NCBI GenBank assembly: GCA_023230325.1
Contig: JALNXN010000003.1
Span: forward strand, 1 to 64,000
DNA length: 64,000 nucleotides
Reading direction: 5' to 3'
Origin: an archaeon
GTDB lineage: Archaea > Iainarchaeota > Iainarchaeia > Iainarchaeales > CSSED10-239
Of this stretch, positions 3-48,158 are shown in pieces. How positions within the stretch are numbered: the stretch's first letter is position 1; every line of letters starts with the position of its first letter. The position numbers and the translations under genes are program-made. The notes beneath the pieces were generated by a model, which was not told where the DNA came from, ran no database searches, and saw only the letters and a list, made by a program, of their open reading frames with translations.

Positions 3-998
3 GATCTAGTCTTATATTTAGATGATGACACTATAATCACAAAGACAGGAATGAAAACCACCAACAGACAACCAAGAAACTGTCCAGAAGGCTTTATCCC
101 AGTTCCAGGAAACTTCTTATATGACACTACAAACGACAGCAGTATGGGTTTTTGTGTTGCAAAATGGGAAATGAAAGCAGATGTTGATGGAGATGGAAAA
201 GGTGATTCTAATCCAAATTGTATGTTTGGAGGTCTACTAGTCTGGACAAACACAATAGATGGTTGTAAAGATTATAATGTTGTTTCCTCTTCAGTTGGCT
301 ATCCAATAACAAATATCAAACAAACAGAAGCAATAACAAAGTGTGAAAGTATTGGTGGTCATTTAATAACTAACAACGAATGGATGACCCTTGCAAGAAA
401 CATAGAACAAGTTCCAGAAAACTGGTCAAGTGGAACAATAGGTATAGGAAAAATAAAGATGGGTAATAATGGAAAAAATGAAGCAGGAGTATCTTATGAC
501 GGTAATAACCCAGAATCAGGTATAGAAGAAAACAGAAACACCCTTTCAAGGTTAAGATTAACAAACAAAGAATATATATGGGACCTTTCAGGAAATGTTT
601 GGGAACTAATTAATAAAAAGATCTCTCAAAAGGACATGGTAGACATCTACAACTTAGATGGAATTCCTAATAATCAAGGTTGGAATGAAAAATTTGCAGA
701 CTATCATTTGTCTAGTTCTTCATACCATTATATAGACTATCAAAACTTAGGAAATACAACTTTAAAATATAAAGATCTATTTCTACTTAATCCAAGTTAT
801 GATGTAAACAATGGAATTGGTCAACTTCACACATATAGTAATAGAAGCTCAACAGATGACACAAATTACACTCTTGGTAGAGGTGGAAAATATAATAGTG
901 TTGATGATATGAGTAGTGGAATGTTATCTAGTTACTTTCAAATACTTCCAAATGATTTTGGTTCAAATTTTGGATTTAGGTGTGTTGTTATTCCATAA
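3..998 (+). CDS. Sulfatase-modifying-factor-like (FGE) surface protein, 3' part
   Basis: The reading frame is open back to the window edge (no stop from base 3), so this is the C-terminal part of a longer gene; the ATG at 51 is probably internal. The visible part resembles the FGE-sulfatase fold: CPEGFIPVPGN near the start, GFCVAKWEM, a helix with TNNEWMTLARN, the family hallmark DLSGNVWEL, and the closing GFRCVV. A DVDGDGKGD segment resembles a Ca2+-binding loop. In DPANN archaea such domains usually sit at the end of large secreted proteins and are thought to be structural or ligand-binding rather than true formylglycine-generating enzymes. I cannot see the N-terminus, so a signal peptide cannot be judged. 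Confidence 0.75.
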   Translation, partial: DLVLYLDDDTIITKTGMKTTNRQPRNCPEGFIPVPGNFLYDTTNDSSMGFCVAKWEMKADVDGDGKGDSNPNCMFGGLLVWTNTIDGCKDYNVVSSSVGYPITNIKQTEAITKCESIGGHLITNNEWMTLARNIEQVPENWSSGTIGIGKIKMGNNGKNEAGVSYDGNNPESGIEENRNTLSRLRLTNKEYIWDLSGNVWELINKKISQKDMVDIYNLDGIPNNQGWNEKFADYHLSSSSYHYIDYQNLGNTTLKYKDLFLLNPSYDVNNGIGQLHTYSNRSSTDDTNYTLGRGGKYNSVDDMSSGMLSSYFQILPNDFGSNFGFRCVVIP

Positions 999-11089: not shown

Positions 11090-11110
11090 ACTAAGTTTTT
11101 AGCTAAAAAT

Positions 11111-11186
11111 GGGAGTGTAGCTTAGTCTGGTTTAGAGCATTGGTCTTATACACCAAAGGTCGCAGGTTCAAATCCTGCTACTCCCA
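11111..11186 (+). tRNA. tRNA-Ile (UAU)
   Basis: Acceptor GGGAGTG/TACTCCC with discriminator A, D-arm GCTT...GAGC, anticodon stem TTGGT/ACCAA enclosing the seven-base loop CTTATAC (anticodon TAT), T-arm GCAGG-TTCAAAT-CCTGC. It decodes AUA directly. Most archaea instead use a CAU tRNA modified to agmatidine by TiaS; a UAU version is known from Nanoarchaeum equitans. The 5' half is nearly identical to tRNA-Ile(GAU) at 7564. The only CAU tRNA in this window looks like a methionine tRNA. Confidence 0.93.
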
Positions 11187-11381
11187 TTTTTTTAATATAA
11201 AGTATATTTTTAGCTTTAAGTTATCTTTTTATTTATTTTTAAATTTCTAATTTCTAAGTTTTAGTTTTTTAAATTTCACTTTTAAATTTAATTTTTACTT
11301 TTCTAAAATCAGTACTCTTTTTAAATTTTATTCTTTTATTATATATAACTATATATATTTTATTAAGGAAAGTAAATCATT

Positions 11382-20636: not shown

Positions 20637-22082
20637 CTATTCCTGTGTCCACGTAGTTTCATCTTTATTATCATAAAGCACAATTCCTTTCTGTGAGAGC
20701 TTAACCCTAATTTGGTCAGCTTCTTCCCATTTCTTTTCCTTTCTTAACTTCTTTCTTTTCTCAATCAGATTAAGAATTTCTTCTCTTGGGATTTGTGGTT
20801 TTTTACAAGAGTCATCTTCTTGGCTTTTAAAGCTTAAAAACTTAAATACCAAATTAACTTTGATTAAAAATTCTAAAATTCTTTTTGCTTGTTGAGTAGT
20901 GATGCTATTTTTCTCAATCAACTTATTAATTTCCTTTACTAAAAAATGAATTTCTGAAAGAGCCATAGGAGTGTTTAGATCATCATCCATTGCTTTTGAA
21001 AAATTAAAGATTGTGTTTTCAATTATTGGTTCTGCAAGTTTACTTTCAGAGGTGTTATCTACATTTTGTAATCTTTTAATAAATGCATTTAGTTTCTTAA
21101 TTGTGTTTTCTGCATCCTCAACTGCTTTTTTAGTATAATTTTGTGGTTTTCTATAATGCCCAGTGGTTACAAGATATCTTAGGTTTTCAGCAGAGTTGTC
21201 TTTTAGAAAGTCTTTAATGGTTATAAAGTTTCCTAGAGACTTACCCATCTTCTTTCCCTCCACCATAAGCATAGAGGTATGCACCCAGTAGTTTACAACC
21301 TTATGTTGGTAATATCCAAAATTTTGAGCAATCTCATTTTGATGGTGTGGAAAAACATGCTCAATTCCTCCTCCATGAATATCAAAATTTTCACCTAAAT
21401 ATTTACAACCCATAGTTGAACATTCAAGATGCCATCCAGGGTAACCAACAGACCATGGAGAGTCCCATTTAAGTATGTGGTTGTCATTTGCTTTAATCCA
21501 TAATGCAAAATCAGAAGCATGTCTTTTATCAGGATCATTTGTAAACCTTGTATTTTTTTCAAGTTCTTCTATGTTTTTTTTAGAAAAAACCCCATAATCC
21601 TTAAATTTAGAAATATCATAATAAACATTTCCATTAACCTCATATGCAAACCCATTATTTAACATCTTCTTAATCCAGGACTGCATTTCAATTATGTGAG
21701 CAGAAGCTAATGGCTCAACATTTGGTCTTGTAAGTTTAAGTTTGTCAAAAGCCTCCCACATGTTTCTTGTGTACTTTTGAACAAGTTCCATTGGGTGATG
21801 ATACTTTCTTTCCTTTGCTCTCTTTTCAATCTTATCTTCTTCAAGATCATCTTCTGTAAGGTGTCCAACATCTGTAATGTTTCTAACATAGAAGATATCG
21901 TAGTTATGAAAATGTTTAAAATAATTAATTAAGATATCATAGTAGATATACGAAAGAGCATGTCCAATATGCACATCATCATAAACAGTAACTCCACAAA
22001 CATAAATTTTTAGTTCCTTTTTAGTAACTGGTTTAAAATTTTCTTTCTTTCTTGTAAGTGTGTTATATATTTTTAGAGTCAT
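20637..22082 (-). CDS. cysS: Cysteinyl-tRNA synthetase
   Basis: Class Ia synthetase for tRNA-Cys. Near the N-terminus YVCGVTVYDDVHIGHALSY holds the first zinc ligand Cys and HIGH; WHLECSTMG gives the second zinc Cys and HVFPHHQNE the His ligands; KKMGKSLGN is the KMSKS loop. The C-terminal helical and anticodon-binding part ends near RKLRKEKKWEEADQIR. About 480 residues is normal. I start at ATG 22082 (MTLKIYN); an in-frame GTG at 22094 adds four residues. The gene converges on the glycosylase gene with a 33 bp gap. Confidence 0.97.
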   Translation of the reverse strand: MTLKIYNTLTRKKENFKPVTKKELKIYVCGVTVYDDVHIGHALSYIYYDILINYFKHFHNYDIFYVRNITDVGHLTEDDLEEDKIEKRAKERKYHHPMELVQKYTRNMWEAFDKLKLTRPNVEPLASAHIIEMQSWIKKMLNNGFAYEVNGNVYYDISKFKDYGVFSKKNIEELEKNTRFTNDPDKRHASDFALWIKANDNHILKWDSPWSVGYPGWHLECSTMGCKYLGENFDIHGGGIEHVFPHHQNEIAQNFGYYQHKVVNYWVHTSMLMVEGKKMGKSLGNFITIKDFLKDNSAENLRYLVTTGHYRKPQNYTKKAVEDAENTIKKLNAFIKRLQNVDNTSESKLAEPIIENTIFNFSKAMDDDLNTPMALSEIHFLVKEINKLIEKNSITTQQAKRILEFLIKVNLVFKFLSFKSQEDDSCKKPQIPREEILNLIEKRKKLRKEKKWEEADQIRVKLSQKGIVLYDNKDETTWTQE

Positions 22083-22356
22083 GTTATGTTTCACAATTAA
22101 TGTTTTATTTTTTTAATTTAATTATAATATATTTAATATTGTAAATACTTATAAATTGTGCTGTTTTTTAAAAAAAAGCTTATAATTTACTTAAAGGAGT
22201 TAATTGTTTGTAGGTTTTTCTTAAAAGTTAAATTTATTAAATTAACCATATACTATATAAATAATTTGTTTATAATATATTTAATTAATTATAAATTAAT
22301 TAACTGTTAATAATGTTATTTTTAAAAAATAAAGGAAATATTATTGGTGTTTTTGA

Positions 22357-25300
22357 ATGGAAAAGAAAAGAGATGTAATTAAGTTGAATAAGATTATTTT
22401 AATAGGAGTTGTGTTTTCCTTTTTATTAATGTTTATGGTTGGAAATATTTCTTCTCAAGAGACTGATGATTTTGGATTAAAAATAAGCAAAGTTTCTGTA
22501 AATAAAGATGGAAATTTAGATGTAATGATTGAAAGAAATGATGGAATTAAAGCTAAAGATATAACTTGTGTAAGTGTCTTTTCAAAAGAAGAGTTTGATA
22601 AAGCAAATCTAGATGAATTTATGTCTCTTTTATTGCATGATAGAAAAAAATCTTATAGCCTTGAGGATATTCAAAATGATCTTAAATTTAAAGGTATTGA
22701 TTTAGATTTTAAAAGTTTTTTTGAAAATTCAGATAATTTAAATCATTCTAGAAACATCTTTCCAAAAGATATGGTTTTTCCAGTAGAAATTAAGATTCCA
22801 AATTCAGACTTTAGATATCTTTATATGTATTGTGTTAGTTATTTAGATGATTCTAAAGCTGACTGGATGGGAAATAGGTATGATCAAAGTATTACTCCTG
22901 AATTAAAAGGGGCATTGAAAAATATGTATTCAAAATATAAAACTTCTGAATTTTTTAGAGGTAGTATATTTTTTTTTGATCTGTTTAGAACTGAAAAATA
23001 TATTTTTTTAGAACCTAATTTAGAAACCTCAAGTTATTTCTTAGATTTAGCCGAAAGTAAAGCAGAGGTCTTAACTAATGTAGATACAACTCCTACTGTT
23101 ATAGCTGATGTTTCAGCAAATCTAACTATTTCAAATTCTATCTCAGATTTAACCATGTCTCCAGAATCTCTTCTTATTGCAGGAAAATCTTCACAAGATT
23201 ATGTTTGTGTAGATCATATTTGTTATATTAACAAAAATGAAAGTGACAAAATAGATGTTAACATTTCTTTCTTAGTAAATAATGTGACCTCTAAAGATAT
23301 TTATGTAACCTCCTCTTTAAAGGACAATTCATCTTTTCTAAAAAATTCAATTTATAATAAACTTAATAATGCTAGTTCTAAACATGTTTTCAATTTTAAT
23401 ATTGGAGATAATTTAACTTCTGTTGAAAACATTCAAGATGGCAATGTAATTTCATTTACAGGTAGTTTAAAAGATAAAATCTATTTAGTTACAATTGCAG
23501 ATTATAATAAAGGTGGAAGTCCAACTGTTACTGACTTTTCAGGATTAAAAATAAATAACAACAGCCAAGTAACCTACCAAATATTAACTGAAGATAATTT
23601 CTTACAAGATCCAAATTATGAACTTGATTATTATTACCTAGTTCCTGTTGAAAAGAACAATTATAATAAACTATTAATCTATCTTTCAAATAAAAAAATA
23701 CTTAATTTCTTTTGTGAAGATTGTTTACCAAATTGGTTATTCTATGAAAAAGATGTTGTTAGAGCTGAACAAACAATTGATCTTAAAGATGTTGAAATAA
23801 TTCCAGAAGATACTGCTTCTGAAGGTATTACTGCTATTAATTTAGATCCTGATTTTTCTGATCAAATTACTATAAATAATCCACTTAAAGTGTATATTAG
23901 TGTTAATTACTTACAATTTTTAATTGATCAATTAGATATTTTTGATTTAGATGAGAAACATAAAGCCACAAATGGTTATGGAAATGAATATGATGACAAT
24001 TCTTATCGTGAAATTTTATGGGATCTAATTTCAAAAAAATATGCAGAATTTTGCACAGATACTCCAAATTTAAATTATCCTAAACTTTTTGAAGTTGGAA
24101 AAGACTTTGGTTTTTCAGATGAAGAGATGGCACAATTTTGGGCAATTGTAACTCAAGAATCTTCCTTTGGAAAGAGTACTATTTCAAAAGGCACTGAATC
24201 ATCATATGGTATGGCTCAAATAAATTATGATGTTTGGTGTTCTGGTAATGGAAAGATAAACGGTTATAATCAATTAAAAGACTATTTTCCAAATAGTATT
24301 GTATCTAATCAAACAGATTATGATACTCTCTGTGACAATATAAAAAATAATAAAGAAGCTGATAAAGATCAAACCTATTCTTTACAATTTGGAGCAGCAG
24401 TCTATAAGGCTTACAGAGATAAAGTAATTGGTACAACAAATGATTTTCCAAGGGAAGCTTTTAAAACCTATGATCATAAAGATGCAATTGATGCAATGTT
24501 TGCAATTGGATATAAATATAATTCTCCAAATAAAGGATTTAATATAAATAAAAAATATACTTTAGAAAGTTCTGGAAACAGTTCCAATTTTAATAATATT
24601 TATTTACCTGTAACTACAACTTTCCAAACTGTTACAAAGTTAGCAAATTATCTTGTATACAAGAAAATAATGTTTGATATTAATACTTTACAAGATGAAG
24701 ATTTAGATAATTGTATAAAGCTTCAAATTAAAAATAACTATAGTAAATTTAGTGCCACATATCCAACAATTCCATTTTTAAAAATGGAATTTTCTACTCC
24801 TGGGTCATCAGCAGTAGATACTACAAATTTAAGTTCTTCTGAAATTGGACCAAAAATCTTAGAAAACGCAGAAAAATATTTAGGTGAGAAATATGTTTCT
24901 GGTGGAAGAAAAGGATATTATGATAAAGATGGTGTTGACTGTATTGGTCTACAATATCTTGCATTAAGAGATACTAGTCTTCTAAATAACAAACCACAAT
25001 TTAATTTTCAAGGAATTCCACAAACTATAGAAGCAAAGAAGGTTTTTAGTTGGGGAGGAACAATTTTAGAATATGTTGCTGATGAAAAATTCGTAATTGA
25101 ATATTCTTCTGATATAGATTATCTTCAACCAGGAGACTTTTTGTATTTTGATTATTCTCATGCTGGTATTTATAAAGGTTATAACTCTCAAACAAAGAAA
25201 CATGAGTTTATACATGCAAACACAATTAATAGTGCTAACCAACAAGTAAATACAGTTTTTTATGATAATATAGAAGATAAACTTAAAATTACTAACACCC

Positions 25301-25953
25301 AGAATAAAGTTCAAAAGTTATCTTCCCCAATTTATGTAGGGAGAATAACTAATAATGATTTTGGTTCAATTAAAGATCTAGCAAGGTATATTGACCAAGA
25401 TAATGATGGTGATTGGAATGATAATAAAATTGATGATTTATATACATTAGATAATACAGACTATTTTGATAGCTCAAATCAACAATTTGGTTTTGAAAGT
25501 GCATTGTTAAAAGGCTGTATTTTGACAACAATTGGAAAATTAAGTTTTAATGAAACTAAATCTTCTGATGAAATTCAAAATATAACACTAACTAAAAAAG
25601 ATATTCGTGCATTAAATGCTTTAAGTTGTTCTAAAACAGTTCCAAAATACCAAGAATTTAATTCTTTAAAAGGTTTAGAATTTTTTAAAAATTTAAGAGT
25701 TTTAGATCTAAGTGGTTCAAAAATTAATAATTCCAGTATAATTGATATAATTAATTTAAAAGAATTAAGAGAATTAGATCTAAGTAATACAAATATAAAA
25801 CTAAGTTCAGACCTTTCTGAATTAGCATATCTTTCTAATAGTAGTTATTTCCCAAATTTAAATTATTTAACTTTAGATGATAGTTTTAAAGATACTCAAA
25901 TAGTTAATGAGATCAAAAATATCCATCCAGGAATTGTTATAGAGTTTAAGTAA
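22357..25953 (+). CDS. Secreted lysozyme-like/NlpC-P60/LRR protein
   Basis: 1198 residues with an N-terminal signal or anchor helix (about 11-31, ending near SSQETDD). The first ~560 residues are Asn-rich and probably beta-structured, unrecognised. Residues ~560-700 look like a lytic transglycosylase (SLT/lysozyme-like) domain: TQESSFG with candidate catalytic Glu601, then SSYGMAQIN. Residues ~845-995 are an NlpC/P60 cysteine peptidase: GVDCIGLQ (Cys862), YSHAGIY (His935) and EFIHAN (His953). A Ca2+-loop-like DQDNDGDWND (1013-1022) follows, and the C-terminus (about 1085-1198) has leucine-rich repeats (LRVLDLSGSKINN, LRELDLSNTNIK). Both enzyme domains normally cut peptidoglycan, which archaea lack. 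Confidence 0.82.
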   Translation: MEKKRDVIKLNKIILIGVVFSFLLMFMVGNISSQETDDFGLKISKVSVNKDGNLDVMIERNDGIKAKDITCVSVFSKEEFDKANLDEFMSLLLHDRKKSYSLEDIQNDLKFKGIDLDFKSFFENSDNLNHSRNIFPKDMVFPVEIKIPNSDFRYLYMYCVSYLDDSKADWMGNRYDQSITPELKGALKNMYSKYKTSEFFRGSIFFFDLFRTEKYIFLEPNLETSSYFLDLAESKAEVLTNVDTTPTVIADVSANLTISNSISDLTMSPESLLIAGKSSQDYVCVDHICYINKNESDKIDVNISFLVNNVTSKDIYVTSSLKDNSSFLKNSIYNKLNNASSKHVFNFNIGDNLTSVENIQDGNVISFTGSLKDKIYLVTIADYNKGGSPTVTDFSGLKINNNSQVTYQILTEDNFLQDPNYELDYYYLVPVEKNNYNKLLIYLSNKKILNFFCEDCLPNWLFYEKDVVRAEQTIDLKDVEIIPEDTASEGITAINLDPDFSDQITINNPLKVYISVNYLQFLIDQLDIFDLDEKHKATNGYGNEYDDNSYREILWDLISKKYAEFCTDTPNLNYPKLFEVGKDFGFSDEEMAQFWAIVTQESSFGKSTISKGTESSYGMAQINYDVWCSGNGKINGYNQLKDYFPNSIVSNQTDYDTLCDNIKNNKEADKDQTYSLQFGAAVYKAYRDKVIGTTNDFPREAFKTYDHKDAIDAMFAIGYKYNSPNKGFNINKKYTLESSGNSSNFNNIYLPVTTTFQTVTKLANYLVYKKIMFDINTLQDEDLDNCIKLQIKNNYSKFSATYPTIPFLKMEFSTPGSSAVDTTNLSSSEIGPKILENAEKYLGEKYVSGGRKGYYDKDGVDCIGLQYLALRDTSLLNNKPQFNFQGIPQTIEAKKVFSWGGTILEYVADEKFVIEYSSDIDYLQPGDFLYFDYSHAGIYKGYNSQTKKHEFIHANTINSANQQVNTVFYDNIEDKLKITNTQNKVQKLSSPIYVGRITNNDFGSIKDLARYIDQDNDGDWNDNKIDDLYTLDNTDYFDSSNQQFGFESALLKGCILTTIGKLSFNETKSSDEIQNITLTKKDIRALNALSCSKTVPKYQEFNSLKGLEFFKNLRVLDLSGSKINNSSIIDIINLKELRELDLSNTNIKLSSDLSELAYLSNSSYFPNLNYLTLDDSFKDTQIVNEIKNIHPGIVIEFK

Positions 25954-26010: not shown

Positions 26011-27006
26011 ATGAATAAAAAAATCATCTGCCTAGGAATAGAGTCAACAGCTCATACCCTAGGAATAGGAATTATTGATTCTAAAGGTAAAGTATATACT
26101 AACTCTAAAAGACAATATGTTCAGAAAGACACAGTATCTGGCATAAAACCCTATGATGCAGCTCAATTTCATTACCAAAATTCTATAGATCTTCTTAAAG
26201 AGGCACTAGAGGATGCCAAATTGACTATGAAAGACATACATGTAATCTCCTTCTCAAAAAGTCCAGGGCTTGGTCCTTGCTTGGTTGTTGGTGCAACTTT
26301 TGCAAGAACTTTAGCAATCAAATATAATAAACCAATTGTAGGTGTCAATCATTGTGTTGCTCATTTAGAGATTGGAAAAACTTTAATGAAAGCAAAAGAT
26401 CCACTTTTTATTTACACTTCAGGAGCAAACACCCAAATTATTGCAAGAGATGACAACAGATATAAGATTTTAGGAGAAACTCTAGATATTGGTCTTGGAA
26501 ACTTATTTGATTCTTTTGCAAGAGATCTAGGTTATGGTTTTCCAGGTGGTCCAATCTTAGATCAAATTTATTTTAAATCAAATAATTATCTTGATATCTT
26601 ACCATACTCTGTAAAAGGCATGGACATTGTCTATTCAGGACTATTAACCTCCAGTCAGAAGTTGATTGGCAAATATAAAAATGAAGATCTAGTTTATTCC
26701 TTTATGCACACAGCCTATGCCATGCTTTTAGAGGTGTGTGAAAGAGCAATTTCCTACACTAATAAAAAAGAAATTATGGTTATTGGTGGTGTTGCTGCTT
26801 CAAAGGCCTTAAAGGAGATGTTAACTGCTTTTTCAAAAGAGAGAAAAGTAAAGCTTTTCATCCCTCCAGTCTCAGCATGCTTAGACAATGGCTTAATGAT
26901 TGCTGATCTAGGCTTAAAAGAGTATCTTTCAAATGGAGGTCAACAACTAAAAGACACAACAATTGACCCAACAGAGAGAACAGATCAAGTAATAATTTCA
27001 TGGTAA
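26011..27006 (+). CDS. kae1: tRNA threonylcarbamoyltransferase Kae1
   Basis: Catalytic subunit of KEOPS, which makes t6A37 on ANN-decoding tRNAs. The ASKHA-fold landmarks are ESTAHTLGIGI (11-21), the iron/zinc motif HCVAH (114-118), YTSGANTQI, LGNLFDSFARDLG, and CLDNGLMI with the third metal ligand Asp. 331 residues covers Kae1 only; no Bud32 kinase is fused, unlike in some archaea. It directly follows the large surface protein gene (57 bp gap) but is followed by terminator-like hairpins. Confidence 0.97.
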   Translation: MNKKIICLGIESTAHTLGIGIIDSKGKVYTNSKRQYVQKDTVSGIKPYDAAQFHYQNSIDLLKEALEDAKLTMKDIHVISFSKSPGLGPCLVVGATFARTLAIKYNKPIVGVNHCVAHLEIGKTLMKAKDPLFIYTSGANTQIIARDDNRYKILGETLDIGLGNLFDSFARDLGYGFPGGPILDQIYFKSNNYLDILPYSVKGMDIVYSGLLTSSQKLIGKYKNEDLVYSFMHTAYAMLLEVCERAISYTNKKEIMVIGGVAASKALKEMLTAFSKERKVKLFIPPVSACLDNGLMIADLGLKEYLSNGGQQLKDTTIDPTERTDQVIISW

Positions 27007-45641: not shown

Positions 45642-48158
45642 CTAATCTGTAAAAACATTAGCTGTCTTTCCACCATCCCAGGTAAGTCTTGGTCTAATCT
45701 TAATTAACATAACCTTCTCAGAATTGTCATCCACTAATATTGCATACCCTTGTGATTTTGGCATCTGTGCATAAAACTTATCCATTGGCACATTTAAATA
45801 ACTTGGTCTTATGGTAGCCACAGCATTAATGTCATCTTGAGCAGTCATTCTCATAGACAAAAACAAATCACATTGAGAGATTGCCTCAGAGTGAAGTTTG
45901 TTAGGTCTCTGTGTTGCAAGAATTAATGAAAGCCCAGGTTGCCTTCCAACCCTTATCCAGTCTAACAAAACATCTAAGGCCATTGAAGGTCTGTCTTGAG
46001 GCATAAACATATGTGCTTCATCAATAACCATCCACACAATCGGCATCTCACTTTCTTTTCTTCTTCCAGACAGTAAGTTCATTTCTTCTTCCTTTCTATA
46101 AAGCATTCTTTCCTCAAATAATCTTTTTCCTAAAAGACCAACAATCAACTCCTTGATTGCCTCCATACCAATTGCTTGCTTATATGTTGACACATCGATG
46201 ACTGTTAAAGTTCCTGCTCTTGCAAACTCTTTAGTTGTTGTTCCAACCTTTGAAAATAGACCCCAGGACTTTGCAACCTTCATCCTATTTATCAAAGAAT
46301 TTTTAATATCTTGACTTGTGTCTTCATCTGTTAAGCAAACCTTAATAATATCATCAATATCAAACAGACTACCAAGCTTTTCTTTAATAATTTCTAAAGT
46401 TCTTTGAAGTAAAGCACTTTCAGGGTCTTTCCAAGTTAATCTAAAAACACCCAACCAATCTTCAAGATCCATTTGAGAGGTTCTTAAGGAAAAAGGTTGA
46501 TCAAAAGGTATTTTTTTTTCTTTATAAAATTCTTGTTTTCCAAAAGGAATCATATTTCTAATCTCAATACCTTCTGGTTTTAGATCCCAACTAGAAAGAT
46601 AATCTTTACCTTCCTTATTTCCAAACTTCATTGTCCAAAAAATTCCAACAGTATCAATTACAATTGTAGAAAGTCTTTCTTTAATTTCAAAAGGCTGTCT
46701 TGCCATCTCTTCTATAATAACTGATAACGTGTAACTGTTGTGTATTATTATATTATTTGCAATAAAATTATAATCTTTAGGCACACTTATATCATAAACT
46801 TCAAATTTTCCATTTTTAATTTCAATACTTTTAATTTCATCCCAAAATATATCTGATTCTGCGATTTTTTTTAAATCTTTATTTTTCTCTTTATTTGCAA
46901 TTGTCAGTAATTTACTTCTAGATGGTGCATAATTAATTGACGATCTGAGTGCTTTTGGAACTTTATAATTAAATTTATCTCCTAATTCTTTCCAACTTTT
47001 TGGTTTAAAGGCATTCCATATTTCTTTAGGGATTGTATCTATATTTGAGTTATTAATTTTTTTAATTTTAATTTGATTATTTCTTTCTTCTTTTTTTCCA
47101 CAAAATCCAATTTCTTTACAATATTTATTTACATCTTGTTCAAATATTTCTAATTCATAATTAGGTCTTACTTTAGTTTTTTTAGTTCTAATTTTTGATA
47201 GTATTTCTAATTTCAGTAATAAACTTTGAACTTGCTTTATCATTTTATTAGATGAAGATGAGTAGCTTATTCTGCATCTATCTTTTTCAAAAAAGATAGA
47301 TCCATCACAACTAAATAATCTATTTAAAAATAATTGGATTGATTTTTTATTTAATTGAAATATTATTTCTGGAATTTCTTTTTCATGTGCTAATTTGTTA
47401 TACATTTTAATTTCTTTTAAATATTCTTTTAATGTATTTTTTGTGTTTTTTTCCTTTTTTTCTTTTTTCCAAATAACTTTATAATTGTATAATCCCATTT
47501 TTTTCAAATCAAGTTCATTATTAAATTTTTCTATTGTGTTTTTAAAATCTAATAATATCTTTTTATCAGAGTTACAAAATAGAATAACTCTATTTGAGAG
47601 GTGGCCTTCAGCAAGAAGATACGCAATTAATTTTATTTTATCTTCAGATAATGTTTTTTTACCTAAATTGTTTAATTTTCTAGGAGTTGCGATTCTAGAT
47701 CCAACTTTTAAATTTTGTATATCTACCCATCCAGTAATTGTAAGCAGAGGGTGTTCAGGAGTAAGTTCTATTTCTTTTCCACTTCTTAATTTGACTTTCA
47801 TAATTTTATCTACTGTTCTCTTGAAAAACTTATTTTTCTTTTTTTTATTAATTTTTAAATTATTATTAATTGAAAGTATTTTGTTATTTGATTTTTCTAT
47901 ATCTTTGATAGGTAATTCTGTTCCATCATCTAATGCTACAAGTGTGTCTCCAGTTACGCATTTCCCCCCTCCGCGCTTTCCACAAACAATCATAACATGT
48001 GATCTAGAGATATCCATTAGCACTTTTTTACCAAGAACAGGATCATCCCCACTAGAGACAACAACTTTACCAATATATCCAGTTGCCTTTTCTCCATATT
48101 TCTCAAATTGTTTTTGAGTTCTTCCAATTACTATATTTTCTGTAAAGTCTAATGTCAT
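45642..48158 (-). CDS. HerA-like ATPase interrupted by an intein
   Basis: 838 residues encode a ~430-residue HerA/DUF87-type hexameric ATPase plus a 408-residue intein. The extein starts with the HAS-barrel-like IVIGRTQKQFEKYGEKATGYIG and reaches the Walker A motif GKRGGGK (60-66), where the intein begins; after splicing Lys66 is joined to Ser475 giving GKRGGGKS. Walker B is VWMVIDEAHMF (about 683-693), and LILATQRPNKL follows. HerA normally works with NurA, Mre11 and Rad50 in DNA end resection, but none of these is nearby. Its start overlaps the stop of a membrane-protein gene by 4 bp, so the two are coupled. Confidence 0.9.
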   Translation of the reverse strand: MTLDFTENIVIGRTQKQFEKYGEKATGYIGKVVVSSGDDPVLGKKVLMDISRSHVMIVCGKRGGGKCVTGDTLVALDDGTELPIKDIEKSNNKILSINNNLKINKKKKNKFFKRTVDKIMKVKLRSGKEIELTPEHPLLTITGWVDIQNLKVGSRIATPRKLNNLGKKTLSEDKIKLIAYLLAEGHLSNRVILFCNSDKKILLDFKNTIEKFNNELDLKKMGLYNYKVIWKKEKKEKNTKNTLKEYLKEIKMYNKLAHEKEIPEIIFQLNKKSIQLFLNRLFSCDGSIFFEKDRCRISYSSSSNKMIKQVQSLLLKLEILSKIRTKKTKVRPNYELEIFEQDVNKYCKEIGFCGKKEERNNQIKIKKINNSNIDTIPKEIWNAFKPKSWKELGDKFNYKVPKALRSSINYAPSRSKLLTIANKEKNKDLKKIAESDIFWDEIKSIEIKNGKFEVYDISVPKDYNFIANNIIIHNSYTLSVIIEEMARQPFEIKERLSTIVIDTVGIFWTMKFGNKEGKDYLSSWDLKPEGIEIRNMIPFGKQEFYKEKKIPFDQPFSLRTSQMDLEDWLGVFRLTWKDPESALLQRTLEIIKEKLGSLFDIDDIIKVCLTDEDTSQDIKNSLINRMKVAKSWGLFSKVGTTTKEFARAGTLTVIDVSTYKQAIGMEAIKELIVGLLGKRLFEERMLYRKEEEMNLLSGRRKESEMPIVWMVIDEAHMFMPQDRPSMALDVLLDWIRVGRQPGLSLILATQRPNKLHSEAISQCDLFLSMRMTAQDDINAVATIRPSYLNVPMDKFYAQMPKSQGYAILVDDNSEKVMLIKIRPRLTWDGGKTANVFTD
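46737..47960 (-). mobile_element. Intein with LAGLIDADG homing endonuclease in the P-loop
   Basis: A 408-residue protein intron in frame. N-terminal splicing block: Cys1 then CVTGDTLVALDDGTELPI; block B with ELTPEHPLLTITGW (the His of block B); two LAGLIDADG-type helices, LIAYLLAEGHL and LFSCDGSIFF; C-terminal block YDISVPKDYNFIANNIIIHN ending His-Asn, with Ser as first C-extein residue. All residues needed for splicing are present. The acid residues of the endonuclease helices appear as Glu (AEG) and Asp (CDG), so it may be active. It sits in the most conserved ATPase motif. Confidence 0.94.

Follow-up and report, generated by a model that had tools for sequence, protein, structure and literature searches.

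The window analysed here, a 64,000-nucleotide stretch of an archaeal contig (JALNXN010000003.1, Iainarchaeota), carries at 22357..25953 (plus strand, ATG start) a gene for a 1198-residue protein. Judging from its sequence, the archaeon probably exports this protein, which would cut the peptidoglycan of bacteria, the most likely substrate, outside the cell. An SLT domain would cleave the glycan strand and an NlpC/P60 domain the peptide stem, while C-terminal leucine-rich repeats (LRRs) with a calcium-loop motif would hold the enzyme on the target surface. The sequence itself shows the export signal, the domain families, the catalytic residues, the conserved chromosomal slot, the varied C-terminal modules of relatives, and no more than one Mur-ligase gene in any of the genomes surveyed; activity, substrate, LRR binding and use on living bacteria rather than on dead walls are inferred.

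Both domain assignments had to be tested through relatives, because the window protein alone gives only weak Pfam matches, all below cut-off, and nothing useful in an NCBIfam scan. For the NlpC/P60 domain (residues 815-1010, 24799..25386), the Pfam scan of the window protein returned no match. A relative was sought in a sample of 87 genomes of the phylum (of unstated completeness; a few contigs may be contaminants), and the only match to the window protein, through its NlpC part, was found in genome G009. This relative passes PF00877 with 35 bits (cut-off 23), and a two-row profile of the window protein and the G009 relative retrieved nine database proteins, all of which carry PF00877. D861, C862, H935 and H953 are invariant across 12 aligned rows. 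The catalytic cysteine C862 (24940..24942), the catalytic histidine H935 (25159..25161) and the third catalytic residue H953 (25213..25215) correspond to the Cys-His-His set of NlpC/P60 (peptidase C40), and the fold check indicated a papain-like NlpC/P60 fold. Residues 817-995 also matched a minor tail protein family of PHROGs (E 2.5e-9), and the PDB sequence matches of this part include the Tn916-like Orf16 and Orf17. On these comparisons, the assignment to the NlpC/P60 family is well supported. In G009 the NlpC frame itself lacks a signal peptide and a frame with one sits just upstream, so this gene may be broken.

The putative SLT/lysozyme-superfamily domain occupies residues 552-776 (24010..24684). 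In the window protein, Pfam listed a C-type lysozyme match at residues 585-639 (18.7 bits, cut-off 27); SLT (PF01464) was listed neither for this protein nor for its counterpart in Candidatus Forterrea multitransposorum (genome G001, hereafter Forterrea). The counterpart in genome G002 passes the Pfam SLT model with 23.2 bits (cut-off 21.3). In a 15-row alignment, 11 rows of which had been selected for matching SLT, E601 (24157..24159), S602, G618, Q621 and Y719 are invariant. We take E601-S602 to be the catalytic Glu-Ser pair, G618/Q621 the G-x-x-Q motif and Y719 the tyrosine of the AYN-like motif, which gives the window protein the aligned catalytic residues of SLT (GH23) enzymes. A search of the protein database with the SLT alignment produced 1956 candidates, none at E 0.001. 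The SLT family assignment is moderately supported by these data. An earlier reading of the window from its letters alone (the sequence-only reading) had proposed both cutting domains in one exported protein; the two domains were recovered, with E601, C862, H935 and H953 at the positions it had given, and the homologues it had suggested looking for in other DPANN genomes were found in Forterrea, G002 and G009.

The open reading frame, its start and its signal peptide were likewise confirmed. The signal peptide (22357..22458, residues about 1-34, cleavage site guessed) has a charged start followed by the sole hydrophobic stretch of the protein (19-residue windows starting at residues 6-16). The protein therefore looks exported via this peptide, with no second membrane anchor. 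The N-terminal body (residues 35-551, 22459..24009) has no Pfam domain and shows a weak relationship to the corresponding region of the Forterrea-type proteins. Downstream of the NlpC/P60 domain, the calcium-loop-like motif of the sequence-only reading is present as DQDNDG (residues 1013-1018, 25393..25410), where calcium may be bound. The C-terminal LRR part (residues 1086-1198, 25612..25953) gave weak Pfam matches, the best at 1086-1159 and below the cut-offs (LRR_14, 21.5 bits vs 40; LRR_4, 18.3 vs 27). The idea that the LRRs bind the target stands insofar as they form a plausible binding tail, but this part is short and its scores are weak.

The chromosomal slot of the gene, between cysS (20637..22094, minus strand) and kae1/tsaD (26011..27006, plus strand), is conserved. 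Closest to the window gene lie a class II tRNA synthetase, a pyrimidine-dimer glycosylase, cysS, kae1 and pth2. Neighbouring genes are archaeal in type (GatE, a thermosome subunit, Kae1/TsaD, PTH2, CysRS, and class I and class II tRNA synthetases). Both synthetases, CysRS, Kae1 and the downstream genes are collinear with the Forterrea chromosome, where the glycosylase found no match. This agrees with the archaeal (DPANN) origin proposed earlier. The window Kae1 is 78% identical to that of Forterrea and 77% to that of the metagenome-assembled genome (MAG) STF1_257, as compared with 44-55% for 27 other genomes of the phylum. The SLT domain has diverged fast: its identity to the Forterrea-lineage proteins is 28-35%, against 65-78% in the flanking genes. 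Searched against the 87 genomes, the Forterrea SLT protein finds only itself and its G002 counterpart. The window gene has a GC content of 0.12 at third codon positions, and six other genes have 0.19-0.26; either rapid evolution or acquisition would account for this low value.

The collinearity speaks against contamination or a chimera, as does a database protein that differs from the window protein at 2 of 1198 residues; the latter represents a cluster (11 member sequences, 1 contig), which makes an assembly chimera unlikely. A search of genome contigs with the whole window protein yielded seven stretches, none of which was confirmed. In Forterrea, the cysS-kae1 slot holds the SLT protein and then a second large protein that has no Pfam family (checked on the L001 copy). 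This second protein follows the SLT gene in both Forterrea and STF1_257 (L001:4114-7983, L007:2651-5857) and is absent from the slot in the window.

The strongest new element comes from beyond 22357..25953: different C-terminal modules occur on what appears to be one archaeal lysin chassis, once of a kind diversified by retroelements. The Forterrea protein (800 residues) stops after the SLT domain. In G002, where the second large protein again comes next, the SLT protein has an additional Lcl_C domain (56.5 bits against a cut-off of 34.9), and P0003, a related muramidase, carries an extra FGE-type domain (31 bits against 23.3). Where these relatives have other modules, the window protein has NlpC/P60 and LRRs. 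The N-terminal body and SLT domain would form a fast-evolving chassis and the C-terminal module would vary, as expected if the target changes.

Three proteins of G001 and G002, of the variable type of Forterrea-lineage diversity-generating retroelements (DGRs), share 51-55% identity with the C-terminus of P0003. All three of these FGE-type proteins adjoin reverse transcriptases. Two Forterrea DGR cassettes, L086 (G001:C1:22000-34000) and L087 (G001:C1:623000-636000), have a template repeat and a reverse transcriptase; bAvd was confirmed in L086, the sole cassette tested for it. Of the template/variable mismatches, 12 of 14 in L086 and 20 of 20 in L087 coincide with an adenine of the template. 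Their variable proteins have an archaeal pilin-like N-terminus (by eye) and an FGE-type C-terminus. In G002, a separate template repeat was not found, and RVT_1 is present in 6 of the 87 genomes. When P0003 was compared with the L086 template, 11 of 12 template-Asn positions differed, against 8 of 25 others (p 0.0008). P0003 is known here as a protein only, and its residue pattern is as hypermutation would leave it, or may reflect shared ancestry and ordinary divergence.

Modular DGR targets that end in a lectin fold have been described, and so has the occurrence of DGRs in DPANN archaea (PMC8144416). The P0003 C-terminus resembles such variable proteins (FGE/C-type-lectin fold), whereas the window protein has no such domain. 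Tentatively, and with about one chance in four by our estimate, the Forterrea lineage may possess a secreted wall lysin with an exchangeable targeting module, a DGR-type lectin in P0003, that could be retargeted by retroelement-guided hypermutation; the window version would instead carry a second cutting domain and LRRs.

The window itself contains an FGE-type (C-type-lectin-like) open reading frame at 51..998 (plus strand), which is 44-47% identical to the Forterrea-lineage DGR variable proteins, related to the P0003 C-terminal module, and devoid of the N-terminal membrane part of the Forterrea proteins. The residue test was not significant here (11 of 12 template-Asn positions differing, against 15 of 25 others, p 0.051). 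This frame may be a remnant, or may be related to sequence past the window edge. No reverse transcriptase was seen by eye among the listed open reading frames of the window. A DGR acting on the window protein was considered and rejected, as Pfam finds no lectin domain in that protein and no template repeat for the 51..998 frame was found in the window.

Wall-hydrolase domains recur in Diapherotrites/Iainarchaeota and are sometimes fused. Pfam cut-offs are exceeded by SLT in 20 of the 87 genomes (a count that includes L051, with GC 0.52, L057, with GC 0.48, and the by-eye phage-like L075, which may not be archaeal), M23 in 6, Amidase_3 in 4 and NlpC/P60 in 3. Fusions over cut-off comprise SLT with M23 in L059 (hjc- and dnaG-like neighbours by eye), Amidase_2 with SLT in L060, and M23 with Amidase_3 in a single frame of G047. 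In G003, SLT is accompanied by a weak GDSL match (23.2 bits vs 32.9). An SLT domain in the M23 protein of G004 (L061) was not counted, as it reached 16.6 bits against 21.3 in a direct scan. One frame of more than 3000 residues in L067 (G060:C26:44000-60000) combines NlpC/P60, Amidase_3 and glucosaminidase, all over their cut-offs. Four SLT proteins (L055, L056, L064, L065) share a C..C......CLACVD.K-like motif, which sits mid-protein in L065 and close to the C-terminus in the other three and may serve in sorting or anchoring. Three small SLT proteins of about 270-300 residues (L049 in G055, L048 in G049, L050 in G054) share a neighbourhood in which a YchF-like GTPase and an RFC-like gene were recognised by eye; this suggests vertical inheritance of SLT in one subgroup.

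A producer without its own peptidoglycan, as the sequence-only reading had assumed, is consistent with the survey. The peptidoglycan pathway needs several Mur ligases. Mur_ligase_M was found in 44 of the 87 genomes, with one gene each (two matches in G017 lie in apparently one frame), in neither of the closest relatives, G001 and G002, and in two control archaea as well. Because no genome has more than one such gene, the pathway is not seen, and synthesis of own peptidoglycan was rejected.

If bacterial peptidoglycan is cut outside the cell, the purpose may differ, and two of the alternatives are sub-cases of this kind. The sequence-only reading, on the whole partly supported, had inferred a weapon or a host-invasion enzyme, but the sequence does not decide between these and scavenging. 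The enzyme may possibly serve as a contact tool for one bacterial host, with local thinning of the wall and attachment of the archaeon through the C-terminal module; we give this sub-case less than an even chance. Such episymbiosis was proposed for large Pacearchaeota and Woesearchaeota transglycosylase proteins (PMC8204110), and lectin-like C-termini are found in the relatives, but the window protein has no anchor besides its signal peptide and no host is known. It is somewhat less likely that wall fragments of dead bacteria are digested for their amino acids and sugars and living cells are left alone. Scavenging would fit a small-genome organism, and dead-bacterial peptidoglycan has been proposed as an amino-acid source of Pacearchaeota (PMC11537232); the varied C-terminal modules, two of them lectin-like, and the fast divergence nevertheless look more like target tracking. 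Either way, the sequence data suggest that archaea of this kind attack or feed on bacteria.

Action on another glycan or glycoprotein, such as chitin or an archaeal host coat, appears improbable. The SLT superfamily includes chitinases, fold does not dictate function, and the known DPANN hosts are archaeal (general knowledge; see also PMC8204110). The NlpC/P60 partner, however, and the M23, Amidase_2, Amidase_3 and glucosaminidase domains of related genomes belong to peptidoglycan-cutting families. We consider it very improbable that the protein belongs, as a wall hydrolase, to a conjugative element, plasmid or virus merely carried in the genome. The sequence-only reading had likened it to Tn916 Orf14 and phage lysins, a likeness of layout: a glycosidase precedes the peptidase in Tn916 Orf14-type hydrolases, and both domains follow in this order (552-776, 815-1010) in one predicted secreted protein here. 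The tail-protein PHROG match and the Tn916-like PDB matches point in the same direction. Yet Orf14-type genes are encoded among conjugation genes, whereas the window gene sits among translation genes, between cysS and kae1, in a gene order common with Forterrea. No relative was found in 50,697 phage records and none was confirmed in viral contigs, so that a phage, viral or conjugative origin gained no support there (plasmid records were not searched). The NlpC/P60 proteins CTn7-Orf16 and CTn1-Orf17 (PDB 9ubf, 4hpe) are of the same family as that of the window protein but belong to bacterial mobile elements, measure about 300 residues (4hpe) and lack the archaeal chassis.

Archaeal wall hydrolases have already been published, and the window protein adds a variant with a second cutting domain and LRRs. 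Large extracellular DPANN proteins with an SLT-type domain were proposed to act on bacterial walls in 2021 (PMC8204110); they resemble the window protein in lineage group, size, location and SLT type, but come from Pacearchaeota and Woesearchaeota; the main text of that paper does not use the word NlpC, and the likeness drawn here is at the SLT level. Vigneron et al. (2022, PMC9723730) described GH23 lytic transglycosylases of the same SLT family in MAGs of Woesearchaeota and proposed predation. From oxygen-deficient zones, three DPANN MAGs with a murein-like transglycosylase have been reported (PMC10936187), their phyla not being given in the passages cited; this is the only paper on Iainarchaeota and peptidoglycan found in the literature searched. 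No paper combining DPANN, NlpC and peptidoglycan was found there.

In Strock et al. (2025, PMC12352652), peptidoglycan hydrolases are reported in 175 of 3,706 archaeal genomes and as killing bacteria, with killing shown for two Halogranum enzymes. The window protein is similarly modular, archaeal, directed at a substrate absent from the producer, and apparently subject to domain shuffling. Their definition requires a catalytic plus a Pfam wall-binding domain; their enzyme Woldo carries M23 and PG-binding-1. The window protein falls outside it, with no such wall-binding domain at E up to 1; because the screen, as described there, needs that domain, it would probably have missed the protein, which exposes a blind spot. 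These precedents (PMC8204110, PMC9723730 and PMC12352652), the relatives with other C-terminal modules and the fused hydrolases of the phylum were omitted from the sequence-only reading. To the still open question whether bacteria sustain DPANN archaea, the locus contributes a concrete, testable enzyme in Diapherotrites/Iainarchaeota, together with a lysin chassis that has different tails in different relatives, in one case a domain of the type that retroelements hypermutate.

Two further features of the window were noted. A HerA-like ATPase at 45642-48158 (minus strand) is split by an intein, with N- and C-terminal intein models over cut-off. ARAGORN predicted a tRNA-Ile with anticodon TAT at 11110-11187, which is unusual in archaea and may be a misread or intron-containing tRNA.
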